The notes beneath the pieces were generated by a model, which was given only the letters and a program-made list of their open reading frames with translations, made no database searches and was not told the DNA's origin. Source: Rhodothermales bacterium (GTDB lineage Bacteria > Bacteroidota > Rhodothermia > Rhodothermales > Bin80). From it: DNA of 64,000 nt. The stretch is taken from the NCBI GenBank assembly GCA_022821385.1, contig JAJEDR010000074.1, positions 1 to 64,000 on the forward strand, written 5' to 3'. The translations under genes were made by a program, and so were the position numbers. Below are positions 1,981-42,608 of this stretch, one piece after another (position 1 is the first letter of the stretch; every line of letters starts with the position of its first letter).

Positions 1981-2540
1981 AATTGTATTCAGAACGTTCT
2001 TTCAAGGTACGAAGATATCAAAGTTGCTGACAATATCAGCATACCCCGGGGAAACGCAAAGACAGCCCGCATGAATCAACTCTGAATTGGTATCACTGAA
2101 CGAAAACGAGCTGTTACCACACATCCCAGACCATTCCGCAGATCCTCCTCGAAAATGCGTGTAAATATCTGTGGACCGTTATGACTTTCTGGAAAAAACT
2201 CTATAACCTGCTCAAAATAACCGCAACGAAGCTACCAAGTTTCCAAATCAATAAATAAATTTTCACAACAGCCAATGACCAACTATTCGGAAGCGTCGTG
2301 CTCAGATCAGGTGATTTTTTCAACTGAACCAAACGCTCCGCGAAGCTGGGGAGGCCAGTCAGGCCCTGCGACTGACGCTCTTACGTCACTCCGGGTTGAT
2401 CTAGGACCTAAAACATATCCTGAACACCGAGGCACCGCTTCATTCACCTGGGTAGGCGGTTGATTCGACGCGGGCGGCTCTGCTGATGTAAAGCCTGAGG
2501 ATGTTCCTCCACAGGGTACCAGAGATGTTTGGCGGACACC

Positions 2541-2702
2541 AATTAAGGGAGACCTCGCCGGAGGCCCCCCTTCTTTTGTTTGGGCCTCCCTAATGAGGCC
2601 CCCTTGCGTTTGGGCCTCCCTATTGAGGCCCCTTTTGTTTGGGCCTCCCTATACTGAGGCCCCCTTGCGTTTGGGCCTCCCTATATTGAGGCCCCCTTGC
2701 GT
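2541..2702. repeat. Tandem array of hairpin-forming ~30 bp units GGGCCTC-CCTAnT-GAGGCCC-CCTTGCGTTT (four clear units plus one degenerate)
   Basis: Units at 2582-2611, 2612-2640, 2641-2672, 2673-2702; conserved complementary 7-nt arms, variable loops CCTAAT, CCTATT, CCTATACT, CCTATATT; degenerate first unit about 2547-2581. Confidence 0.85.
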
Positions 2703-2730
2703 GTTGTCCAGCGTAGTACCGAGGGACAAC
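2703..2730. repeat. Inverted repeat GTTGTCC-N14-GGACAAC directly abutting the hairpin array
   Basis: gttgtcc agcgtagtaccgag ggacaac read directly. Confidence 0.7.
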
Positions 2731-3328
2731 ACCGGTTGTAAATACATTCAATGAAATGTTCCGATAATCTACTACATCCGGGATGTGTTACTCAGCAAGA
2801 GGAATAAATTGTGTCATTCTCAGCACAAAACCCCAATGCAACCGTGGTAGAATATAGGTAGTGTCAGCCAGAAGAAACCTACGATGCCCGCTGAACTAGC
2901 TGCGATCCGTATACTTAAACGAAAGAGAATTGTAATTCAAACATCGTAGACTCATAGTGTAAATTCTCCCAGAAAATGCAGGGGAAGGTCCATGGACAAT
3001 TGCGATTAACCGAAGAAAAAATCCGCAACAATCTGCTTTGAGGCCACCTCAACGCAACCATTTGAAACTTTAAATCAATGAGCTACACCTTTCCAATAAG
3101 AACTCCAAAGACCAGCTGTCGAAAAAAGAGTTAGATCAAGCAATTAGCGCTCACAAGGCTTCGATTTGTGGTAAAGAGTTTGGTTGAATATGAAAAACCT
3201 ACAAAGGCGGCAAACCGGACCTAGCTAGAATCCCGCGAAGTCCAATTGAAACCACAACCAACTCTTTGGCGGTCTCTCATCATCTGACAAATAAGCCGTA
3301 CATTCCCCGGATATGATACAACTGAACA

Positions 3329-3622
3329 ATGCGGGACATCCTATTCGTCGCTGCCTTAGTCTTGATCGTGCTGAGCTGGCTCGGACCAATCGTGCTCTTT
3401 CGTCGATCATTAACAACTCGGACTAAGTTTTTCATTACTCTCGGACTCATCCTCCCCTTTGCCTCGTTCGGAGCACTTGCGCCAAGTAGAGGGGCGCTTT
3501 GGGGATCAGCCATACTAATTGTGATGGGCAGTATGATCGCAAAATACTGGCTGGACTGGCGTAGAGAATTAACGGCCTCCGATAAAACTCTGATCGGACA
3601 TGGTAATAAGCCAATAGCTTGA
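3329..3622 (+). CDS. Small hydrophobic (membrane) protein, hypothetical
   Basis: 97-aa ORF with several hydrophobic segments (LFVAALVLIVLSWLGPIVLF, FFITLGLILPFASFGAL). Confidence 0.45.
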   Translation: MRDILFVAALVLIVLSWLGPIVLFRRSLTTRTKFFITLGLILPFASFGALAPSRGALWGSAILIVMGSMIAKYWLDWRRELTASDKTLIGHGNKPIA

Positions 3623-3674
3623 AATCATGTACGTGCCCCGCGAGCGGTGTTCGGTGCCGAATATATCTGCACGC

Positions 3675-5357
3675 TTATTGCCACCCCCGTCCGCAAATAA
3701 AAGACTCTATCCCCAATTGCTCCAAAGTAGCCGCCTTCGCTAATAAAGCCTGCCGTGCCCCTCCCTCATCAGGTACATAAACAACCTGGATATGGTTTGC
3801 CTTGTGCCGTGCCATAAGCTGCTGCCGAGATGTACCCTCCAATACCGCATGCATGATTGGCCATTGGTGAGTCGTAGACTGCCAGCGCCGTTCAGTTTCT
3901 TCATCCGGTAATGCAATCGCCTCCCCACGTCCAAGGTCCGCCTTTAGCCTGCCATCTTCCACGTAAATACGACTCCAGATGATCTGACCAGGCTTGCATA
4001 CTCCCTTGACGGTCCCCCCACCCAAACGGAAATACATCGGCGGCTGCCGCTCACTCATTGTACCGCTGTAACCACCAACAAAATGAGCAGGAGGGGCCGC
4101 CCCGGAAATCTGAAATGTCCAGACAAACTTCCCATCGTACCGCTCACCCCAGCGCACATCGTGTAACGTATTTTCCGAGGGATATCCGAGCGACTGCCAC
4201 AGAACTGCAGTTATGTACCCGTCTAGCCCAGCGCACTCGTCCACCTCATTGAAATGGACCAGAGCCCGACCGGCGTAGAGTTCTCGGCTTCCATCTCGAC
4301 TCGAAACTGGAGGACGCTCTGTACTGTTGAGCAACCCTTCTGCCAGATCTGATGCCGGAAGGAGATCTTTCAAGCCTTGCTGATACTGTATACCGATCGT
4401 ATCACAACCAAAATCATCTGCAATCCGGAGCGCGGCGATATACATTTTGCATTGCTGTAAAACCTGGGCTTCCGTTAGCTCAGTAGCCTCATCCGTTCCG
4501 AATGCGAACGACATTCCCCGCTCCTGTACCCACGTCAGGCAGGACGCTGCTTCCTCATCGGTCACCTGAAGAGTTTCGTAATAAAGCGCACTCTGACTTA
4601 AGCGCTCCTTGAACATCCCTACCTGATTTAACAAATGATCCGGGATGATCGCATTGTACATTCCCATACATCCCTCATCAAAGACCCCCATAATGGGCAT
4701 ACTGTCTTTGATTTGCCTAGCAATACGATTCCCAAGCACACGGGCATACCCTGGTAGACTCATTCGCGCAACAGGAATTACATGCGAATCATCCTGGACC
4801 ACATTCTTTCCGGCCAGCCAGCGTGACAAACACGTGTTGAAATGTTCGTCCGCAAAATTCTCGCTCCAAAGCGTGGTGTATGGTACACCGGCCTTGGCGA
4901 GCGATCCGTTCATATTCAACATCCCCACAAGACCCGGCCATGTACCGCTCCAATTGGCAACTGTGAGAATTGGCCCCTTATGCACCATCAACCCCGACAA
5001 GACATGATGAGAATACTGCCAGGCAGCAAACACGACCACTATCGGACTCTCTGGGTGGATCCCCTGAAACACTTCGCGTCCATACTTCTGGCTGTCAATG
5101 AACCCGTGCCCCGTATTCGCATCTACCGGATGCCCCCGCACAACGTCATATCCGCTTGATCGAATGGCCTGGGCAACCGCAAGCTCAACTTTCTCCTGCT
5201 CCGGCCAACAAGTCTGGTTTGCCGAGAGGCGTAGATCCCCACTGGCAATGATCGTCACTTCGGGAGTATCCCGTCTCGCTAACTGCATTTTAACGCTGTG
5301 TTTGTTCCTGATAAGACCTAATATAGTCATCAACGAACGTCTGATTGCCTCCCACAA
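3675..5357 (-). CDS. L-fucose/L-arabinose isomerase-like family protein
   Basis: 560-aa ORF; overall pattern of FucI-like proteins (IVVFAAWQYSHHVL, GVFDEGCMGMYNAIIPDHLLN, C-terminal GGGTVKGVCKPGQIIWSRIYVEDG). Confidence 0.65.
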   Translation of the reverse strand: MWEAIRRSLMTILGLIRNKHSVKMQLARRDTPEVTIIASGDLRLSANQTCWPEQEKVELAVAQAIRSSGYDVVRGHPVDANTGHGFIDSQKYGREVFQGIHPESPIVVVFAAWQYSHHVLSGLMVHKGPILTVANWSGTWPGLVGMLNMNGSLAKAGVPYTTLWSENFADEHFNTCLSRWLAGKNVVQDDSHVIPVARMSLPGYARVLGNRIARQIKDSMPIMGVFDEGCMGMYNAIIPDHLLNQVGMFKERLSQSALYYETLQVTDEEAASCLTWVQERGMSFAFGTDEATELTEAQVLQQCKMYIAALRIADDFGCDTIGIQYQQGLKDLLPASDLAEGLLNSTERPPVSSRDGSRELYAGRALVHFNEVDECAGLDGYITAVLWQSLGYPSENTLHDVRWGERYDGKFVWTFQISGAAPPAHFVGGYSGTMSERQPPMYFRLGGGTVKGVCKPGQIIWSRIYVEDGRLKADLGRGEAIALPDEETERRWQSTTHQWPIMHAVLEGTSRQQLMARHKANHIQVVYVPDEGGARQALLAKAATLEQLGIESFICGRGWQ

Positions 5358-40563: not shown

Positions 40564-41313
40564 TCAAATAACTTTGGCTTCCTCACGCAAGAGCGCGATC
40601 ACCTGCTCTGCAACCCCATCTTCATAAGCCAGAATTTTACCTACTGACTTTGATGCCGGCAAAGCCAGTGACGCAATCTGAAGTTGCGCAACCTCAAGTG
40701 CAGCCGTCTCTTTTTCTATGGGTTTACGCTTTGCCTTCATAATGCCCCTGAAGGATGGGTAACGCGGTTCACCAATCCTGCGGTTGATGCCGACGATTGC
40801 CGGTAGGTTGCATCTGTGGATTTCGTCACCTTGCTCAACAGGATGTCGGGCGGTCAATCCATCTGAGGTTACTCTCAGTTCTTCAACCCCGGTAATGCAT
40901 GGCCAATTAAGCAGTACCCCTAGTCGCTGCGGCACTTGAGCTCCTGCACCATCAATGGCAACCTCACCCGTCAGAACTAGGTCGAAGTCACGCGTGCCGA
41001 TCGTGTTTGCGAGCGCACCTGCGACAATCTTTGGGTCATCCGGCATGGCATCACACTGGACATGCACTGCAAGGTCGGCCCCCATAGCTAAGCCCTGCCT
41101 GAGTGCGCTTTCTACGCGATCCGGTCCGAGAGCAATGAGCGTGACTGTTCCCCCCTGCTCATCACGCACACGTACCGCTACCTCAATGGCAGACTCGTCA
41201 TGCGGGTTTATTATCCATACGAGGCCCTCCTCCCCAACACTGGATCCATCAGGGGCCAACGTGGGCCGGGATTCCGTATCGGCGGTCTGCTTAATGCATA
41301 CGGCTATTTTCAT
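40564..41313 (-). CDS. etfB: Electron transfer flavoprotein beta subunit
   Basis: 249 aa; MKIAVCIKQTADTESRPTL, INPHDESAIEVAVRV, LTGEVAIDGAGAQVPQRLGVLL. Confidence 0.95.
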   Translation of the reverse strand: MKIAVCIKQTADTESRPTLAPDGSSVGEEGLVWIINPHDESAIEVAVRVRDEQGGTVTLIALGPDRVESALRQGLAMGADLAVHVQCDAMPDDPKIVAGALANTIGTRDFDLVLTGEVAIDGAGAQVPQRLGVLLNWPCITGVEELRVTSDGLTARHPVEQGDEIHRCNLPAIVGINRRIGEPRYPSFRGIMKAKRKPIEKETAALEVAQLQIASLALPASKSVGKILAYEDGVAEQVIALLREEAKVI

Positions 41314-41594
41314 CGGTCGAGATCAAAGGCTATCACTTGCCAATTCACGAAAGCCATAAGGTACTGTATAGATTCCCCGGTGAAATATTCGGGTACGTGA
41401 TACGATCTGTACTAATCGTAGATCATCACAGCCGTAAATAAAACGACTGTGGTCCATAAACTCGGCGGTTATACCACCAAGAGACCAGACTTATCCGGTA
41501 TCCGAGGGTCTACGATCTATCTGCGTATGTACGCTGATTGAATCTGATTAATTAAATTCATTCGAGTTCCCAATCATAACTATTAAAAAAGAAA

Positions 41595-42608
41595 GTGAAG
41601 TCGTCTATCAACTGGGGAATTATCGGTGCAAGCACGATCGCCAAGGAATGGATGATCAATGCCATCAACGCAGACCCCAAAAGTCATGTAACCGCCATTC
41701 TGAGCCAATCCCAGCAGCGCGGACAGGATTTTAGCGCACGGTTCGGTATTGCGCGCACCTATACCGATCTCTCTGTATTTCTGGCAGACCCTGACATAGA
41801 CGTGGTGTATATAGGAACCACCAATGAGCTGCATAAGCCACAAACACTGGCCGCTGCGTCTGCCCAAAAACATGTTCTCTGTGAAAAACCCCTTGCCCTC
41901 TCACTCGCAGACGCACGGCAAATGGCACAGACCTGCACAACTGCTGGCGTGGTCATGGGGACTAATCACCATCTGCGTAATGCTGTCACGCACCGCAAAC
42001 TTCGCGAGCTAGTCCGAGACGGTGCCATCGGGCAGCCGCTCGCGGTTAGGGTGTTCCACGCCGTTATGCTGCCTCCACATTTGCAGACTTGGCGGATCAA
42101 AAATCCTGCAACCGGGGCCGGAGTTGTCCTTGATATAACCGTTCATGATACAGATACACTTCGGTTTATTCTGGATGATGAGGTTGATTCTGTGGCGGCG
42201 TTAACTTCGGCACAGGGCCTTGGAGAACACGGAATCTCCGATACTGTAATGGGTATCATGCGGTTTAAAAACGGTACCGTGGCGCAGTTCCATGACTCAT
42301 TTGTAATTGGCCACGCTGGCACTGGACTTCAGGTTCATGGCACCAACGGATCGTTGATTGCCACAGATGTCATGACGCAGCAACCCGTTGGAAATATCAC
42401 GCTCCGCCGTGGTGATCAGATTGAGAATGTTGAACTTCCGCCCCATACCAATCTTTACGAACGTGCCGTAAAGTGCTTCAATAACGCTGTCCAGGGCAAT
42501 GGAACACCGGCCGCAACGGCTGAAGATGGCATTCGCTCGCTCGCCGTCGCTCTGGCAGTTGAACAGGCAGCGAAGACGGGCTCCCATGTCACAGTCACCT
42601 ATGCCTGA
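41595..42608 (+). CDS. Gfo/Idh/MocA-family oxidoreductase
   Basis: 337 aa; WGIIGASTIAKEWMINAI, VVYIGTTNELHKPQTLAAASAQKHVLCEKPLAL. Confidence 0.9.
   Translation: MKSSINWGIIGASTIAKEWMINAINADPKSHVTAILSQSQQRGQDFSARFGIARTYTDLSVFLADPDIDVVYIGTTNELHKPQTLAAASAQKHVLCEKPLALSLADARQMAQTCTTAGVVMGTNHHLRNAVTHRKLRELVRDGAIGQPLAVRVFHAVMLPPHLQTWRIKNPATGAGVVLDITVHDTDTLRFILDDEVDSVAALTSAQGLGEHGISDTVMGIMRFKNGTVAQFHDSFVIGHAGTGLQVHGTNGSLIATDVMTQQPVGNITLRRGDQIENVELPPHTNLYERAVKCFNNAVQGNGTPAATAEDGIRSLAVALAVEQAAKTGSHVTVTYA

Follow-up and report, generated by a model that had tools for sequence, protein, structure and literature searches.

Type III systems (ToxIN/AbiQ, CptIN, TenpIN) have been searched for by a promoter, tandem repeats, a terminator and a toxin ORF (PMC8860590). 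A related arrangement was described for AbiF, a HEPN abortive-infection protein that is accompanied by a repeat-bearing ncRNA, RCd22, which was tested experimentally; the nuclease gene is prophage-borne and lies behind the structured ncRNA and a terminator, with no promoter predicted between them (PMC12373285). NYN domains are predicted RNases that have a PIN-like fold (Anantharaman and Aravind 2006, cited in PMC7180214). Here we describe a tandem hairpin array in a stretch of 64,000 nucleotides from a Rhodothermales bacterium (the window), together with its relatives, some of which stand next to an NYN gene.

A tandem hairpin array in a variable genomic segment

Within positions 2582-2694 the window carries four perfect GGGCCTC/GAGGCCC hairpins, far above chance expectation. 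Pattern search located exact GGGCCTCCCTA-N-GAGGCCC units at four sites (2582-2601, 2612-2631, 2641-2662 and 2673-2694) and gave no match across 100 dinucleotide shuffles of the window, while Tandem Repeats Finder reported a period of 32 with 4.1 copies. Loops and linkers are as given in the initial annotation; the four copies have the same arms and differ in these loops and linkers. The initial annotation had missed a fifth, longer hairpin at 2545-2572. The additional inverted repeat that it had noted, GTTGTCC/GGACAAC, was confirmed and is part of a longer one, GTGTTGTCC/GGACAACAC, at 2701-2732. The features of the region are as follows.

1-1980 and beyond, minus strand: restriction-methyltransferase gene
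2545-2572, minus strand: end hairpin of 12 bp in the MFE structure, terminator-like, followed by a weak U-tract (UUAAUU)
2582-2601, minus strand: array hairpin 4 in RNA order, loop AUUAGG
2612-2631, minus strand: array hairpin 3, loop AAUAGG
2641-2662, minus strand: array hairpin 2, loop AGUAUAGG
2673-2694, minus strand: array hairpin 1, loop AAUAUAGG
2700-2838, minus strand: leader of the proposed RNA gene (model R1), with upstream block, promoter-like block and 5' stem-loop
2701-2732, minus strand: 5' stem-loop GUGUUGUCC...GGACAACAC with a 9-bp stem, identical to the additional inverted repeat
2737-2742, minus strand: TTTACA, putative -10 position (CGTATA in element B of the sister species G003, see below)
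2758-2762, minus strand: GGAAC, candidate -35, invariant in 5/5 elements and at constant spacing to the 5' stem-loop
2830-2837, minus strand: ATTGGGGT, invariant in 5/5 elements
3675-5357: gene with weak L-fucose isomerase domain matches

Folding of the array was significant on both strands, with the minus strand giving the stronger structure (-102.2 kcal/mol, z -8.1) and the plus strand the weaker one (-89.7 kcal/mol, z -6.4). Two pairing registers arise automatically because the arms of the units are palindromic, and the alternative folding suggested in the initial annotation was correct; in the thermodynamic model the nesting of neighbouring units into long hairpins is favoured over separate hairpins (p about 0.92-0.93). 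Separate hairpins would probably come first while transcription proceeds, and a functional switch between the registers would be thermodynamically possible. A CRISPR array was rejected, as the variable stretches are only 6-10 nt long and alike and do not resemble unique spacers. Across the array Rfam 15 gave no family at or above the gathering threshold, a comparison with plasmid and phage DNA gave no matches, and a genome-wide search found no second array copy in the own genome, a draft assembly of 96 contigs with 97.6% completeness.

The array sits in a variable segment between the restriction-methyltransferase gene and the gene with isomerase matches. The stretch had been called gene-poor, and no ORF with a family match was indeed found within 1981-3674; pseudogene-like, decayed-looking fragments surround the array. 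Two related genomes (G004 and G009) carry both flanking neighbours with other sequence between them, and in a third (G008) a contig matches on the isomerase side only. In G009 the segment that matches the array's own encodes a PADLOC PDC-M02B candidate defence protein (L031 6547-7677); since this candidate lies beside the restriction gene, the segment is likely a defence hotspot. Positions 2299-2450 of the window hold a decayed copy of a dispersed sequence with further copies in the own genome (G000, C55 and C18) and two in G009; in L028 6515-6760 its reading frame is like FFQLDQTLRKSGNAGQ...RHFGDLIRDLRHNLDTE.

Related arrays in two sister species

When the region was compared by BLAST with 59 related genomes, an array was found in G003, which together with G005 represents two sister Rhodothermales species of the same genus as the window genome. 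Judged from these two species, the window array belongs to a putative RNA gene of ~330 bp on the minus strand, which consists of a promoter-like block, a 5' stem-loop, 1-6 tandem hairpins and a terminator-like hairpin. G003 carries a tandem pair of elements, A (six hairpins) and B (three hairpins), both of which have a leader, a 5' stem-loop and an end hairpin; at the matching locus of G005 the two tandem elements comprise two hairpins and one. The end hairpin of the window at 2545-2572 matches the terminator hairpins of both species in position. Sequence similarity strongly supports homology between the window array and these arrays. A purely local product of replication slippage, which the initial annotation had allowed for should neither copies nor conservation turn up, does not fit an array that is conserved in relatives, even though the own genome holds it only once. 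Regarding the number of units, for which the initial annotation had proposed a comparison between strains, the orthologous loci of G003 and G005 differ (6 vs 2 and 3 vs 1) while their flanks are similar, so slippage or recombination acts on the units.

In the GTDB species collection (~85,000 species) the leader pattern yielded 33 stretches, with arrays only in the two sister MAGs. Order-wide, the tandem-arm pattern gave, beyond the own genome, G003 and G005, only scattered single matches that look like chance, and none of its 15 matches in viral sequences had three or more units.

Leader, promoter-like block and strand

The five leaders (window, A and B of G003 and the two of G005) align over 144 columns with a mean column identity of 79%. 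In all five elements the leader and 5' stem-loop are followed by hairpins, and their homology by BLAST is independent of R1, a covariance model of the leader. R1 scored 134 bits at the window leader (E 9.5e-32), the window being one of its five source sequences, and, G003 and G005 aside, found no further strong copy when 114 genomes of the order were scanned. Both GGAAC and TTT.ATTG are invariant in 5/5 elements, as are their distances to the 5' stem-loop. We consider GGAAC, which also stands before an RNA of a further genome of the genus (G007, see below), a candidate -35 of a putative ECF-sigma-like promoter, with sigma type and start site inferred. In the window the putative -10 is weak, as is the U-tract. 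As a widespread promoter motif GGGAACTTTT was rejected, as it is not enriched in the window. Allowing ≤2 mismatches, the leader motif GGRAACWTTTYATTGRA is ~3x commoner than its reversed control across the genus, particularly in G002 and G006; its matches include recurring GGGAACTTTTTATCG forms, and perhaps this is a common promoter type.

Regarding the orientation of the proposed RNA, the wobble pairs favour the minus strand. Over 17 hairpins on this strand, pairing is kept by 9 G-U pairs vs 1 A-C pair, an A-C being a G-U on the opposite strand (one-sided p 0.01, with units inside one array not independent), and the end hairpin at 2545-2572 uses G-U pairs on the minus strand too. In the 5' stem-loop the inner six pairs are kept in 5/5 elements; five cells are G-U, and one change is two-sided. 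As the covariation of the stem does not rise above shuffles of these only five sequences, its pairs say more about the strand than about the stem as such.

An NYN gene beside the sister arrays

In G003 and G005 the two tandem RNA genes are located directly upstream of an NYN gene, the end of element A being about 16 nt away from the ATG of this gene. The encoded protein of 265 aa matches the NYN domain PF01936 (E 2.3e-13), and the aspartates in three of its motifs (FVDAG, GVDS and GDED) do not vary among 15 homologues. Its AlphaFold model has a mean pLDDT of 89 and is closest to 2qip (VPA0982; E 2.5e-7) among PDB folds, while the NYN profile found no sequence relative in the PDB.

The sister cassette of RNA genes and NYN gene sits between etfB and a Gfo/Idh gene. 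In the window these two genes (40564-41313 and 41595-42608) are separated by only 281 nt, so the cassette site (41314-41594) is empty, and the window array is found at another site. No NYN homologue was found in the own genome, and no NYN relic in the window. An NYN-RNA cassette occupies the etfB-Gfo/Idh site in G003, G005 and, with a broken NYN gene, in G007 of the same genus; the NYN gene of G012 is broken as well, and in both G007 and G012 a single GC hairpin precedes the NYN ATG. G003 and G005 share one NYN insertion, and the adjacency of array and NYN gene hence counts as one event.

Predicted NYN-upstream RNAs in other bacteria and viruses

Homologues of the NYN protein are encoded on alphaproteobacterial plasmids (Azospirillum and Sinorhizobium), in a single record of a phage collection and on 18 viral contigs, in some of which the gene lies amid likely phage structural genes. 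A terminator-like hairpin (GC stem, T-rich tail) within 75 nt upstream of the start codon was found for 23/23 of these wider NYN loci and for 12/141 of the other ORFs in the same loci (Fisher p 1e-19, too favourable a value given the close relatedness of many loci). In this RNA a stem-loop that covaries, with two-sided changes in several pairs, is joined by a linker such as ACAUACAAA to a hairpin, for example GGGUCCC-UGAG-GGGGCCC. In loci L164-L167 and L172-L190 stem-loop, ACAUACAAA linker and terminator-like hairpin stand directly before the NYN genes. A. thermophilum carries two tandem copies of the RNA. More distant actinobacterial NYN genes are without such an upstream hairpin. Two exact patterns from this RNA matched 13 viral contigs, each of which is an NYN locus; as the patterns were taken from NYN loci, this says only that no NYN-free exact copy was found. 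On the Sinorhizobium plasmids (L165 and L167, 3441-4526) the NYN gene has an annotated RES/Xre toxin-antitoxin pair as its immediate neighbour, and two NYN-bearing viral contigs (L185 5042-5223, L190 4239-4419) have Rfam matches to C4 antisense RNA and isrK. For the NYN-upstream RNAs themselves Rfam holds no family, and we found no NYN-RNA partner in Rfam, PADLOC or the searched literature (mostly without subscription papers and preprints).

We built a covariance model of the wider NYN-upstream RNA, R2. The 5' stem is missing from R2 owing to its misplacement in the joint alignment, and it reappears in sub-alignments A5 and A6. In G007 the RNA that precedes the broken NYN gene is a match to R2 (25.6 bits) and comes with a GGAAC-N16-CGTATA motif. 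No match to R2 at E up to 10 was obtained in the window array or in those of G003 and G005, so sequence does not show that the array RNAs derive from the RNA of the wider NYN loci. A common descent is nevertheless likely, given position, layout and the intermediate in G007. That NYN genes are paired with their own upstream RNA across distant bacteria is strongly supported by these comparisons.

Interpretation of the window array

To the reading that the window array is an orphan, hairpin-expanded copy of the RNA partner in a type III-like RNA-RNase module we give an even chance. The array would form the main part of a minus-strand gene for a small non-coding RNA, with a promoter near 2737-2762, a transcript start at about 2732 and an end at the terminator-like hairpin near 2545. 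In the predicted fold of the RNA a 5' stem-loop is followed by four tandem hairpins, whose loops are AU-rich and whose linkers are A-rich. A gap of about 16 nt separates the terminator from the NYN start codon in the sister species, so synthesis of the RNase would depend mainly on read-through. By analogy to ToxIN and AbiF the RNA may bind and restrain, and thereby neutralise, a putatively toxic RNase, although NYN proteins may have non-toxin roles; the number of hairpins could then set the dose or valency of the restraining RNA. The window copy, being without the protein, would be an orphan RNA and not a complete module, either a leftover or a guard RNA against an incoming module. More tentatively, and with somewhat less than even confidence, we propose an undescribed family of RNA-controlled NYN nucleases on prophages, plasmids and chromosomes, whose RNA became array-expanded in one Rhodothermales genus and whose orphan array in the window could protect against an incoming module.

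The hairpins and terminator might instead be an attenuator or leader that controls read-through into whichever gene follows (the NYN gene in the sisters), the RNA having no independent role. In each case the terminator immediately precedes the NYN start and leaves no room for a promoter between, as an attenuator would. In the window, however, the next minus-strand gene starts ~560 nt downstream and is present in related genomes without the array. Elements B and A of G003 moreover each have their own leader and terminator, so that B as an attenuator would control nothing but A, and the number of hairpins varies freely; we regard attenuation as unlikely. A decaying remnant, that is a non-functional leftover of a lost module whose perfect arms stem from recent unit duplication, would agree with the pseudogene fragments in a variable segment, the lack of an NYN gene in the own genome, the weak -10 and U-tract and a copy number that is unstable between species. 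Yet spacing and stem are intact in a leader that still scores 134 bits (with the window among the sources of R1), all four copies share the same arms but not the same loops and linkers, and the site is not the sisters' cassette site, which is empty here. This explanation, too, we consider rather improbable.

That the RNA is a CsrB-like sponge, with repeated hairpins titrating a host RNA-binding protein unrelated to NYN, appears very unlikely: the multiple identical hairpins and the window loops, which run into AGGGA and fit ANGGA, would suit it, but the GGA motif is absent from element A of G003 (AUUAUAGGGGGCCC) and the NYN adjacency would be left unexplained. Hardly any weight can be given to a slippage-amplified terminator or a palindrome array acting at the DNA level (REP-like, protein-binding). 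Palindromic units at near-regular spacing, three of them terminator-like on the plus strand, recall such arrays, but the terminator count is little above shuffles, the units occur at one genomic place only and are not dispersed, G-U pairs keep the pairing on one strand, and leader and end hairpin are conserved in other species. Among the three options of the initial annotation (structured ncRNA, protein-binding array and phase-variable spacer), the structured ncRNA thus gains support from the relatives, the leader, the one-strand G-U pairing and the nuclease adjacency, while nothing was found in favour of the phase-variable spacer.

Comparison with known systems

Judged by sequence, the sister-species layout agrees, apart from the toxin fold, with the elements used to search for type III systems, the promoter being a candidate one, and it mirrors that of AbiF and RCd22. 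Like ToxIN/AbiQ, CptIN and TenpIN, the loci of G003 and G005 combine a promoter-like block, RNA repeats of ~30-36 nt, a terminator-like hairpin and a predicted endoribonuclease gene. Tandem structured repeats number 4 in the window, 6 + 3 in G003 and 2 + 1 in G005. A terminator hairpin lies between repeats and putative toxin gene in G003 and G005, as it does before the gene in all wider NYN loci, while in the window the terminator-like hairpin is followed by no toxin gene. The differences from type III systems are that the sister nuclease is NYN/PIN-like (PF01936, nearest fold 2qip) and does not have the ToxN/AbiQ fold, that the array repeats are plain hairpins with no evident pseudoknot, and that the putative toxin ORF present in G003 and G005 is missing from the window locus. 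CsrB/RsmZ sponge RNAs are likewise multi-hairpin small RNAs, but the GGA loop motif is not conserved here (absent from the element A loops of G003) and the relatives adjoin NYN genes.

With AbiF-RCd22 the present system shares a structured repeat-motif ncRNA with a terminator before a prophage-borne nuclease gene and the lack of a predicted promoter between the two; the nuclease is unrelated (NYN and not HEPN), the RNA is a different one, and our system is known from sequence alone. The sister-species protein in turn resembles the NYN-domain RNases (PF01936) in its domain match and conserved aspartates. If our reading is true, NYN RNases would join ToxN and AbiF as nucleases checked by a dedicated, upstream-encoded structured RNA, and the Rhodothermales arrays would show such an RNA growing from one hairpin to many and its RNA half surviving alone.
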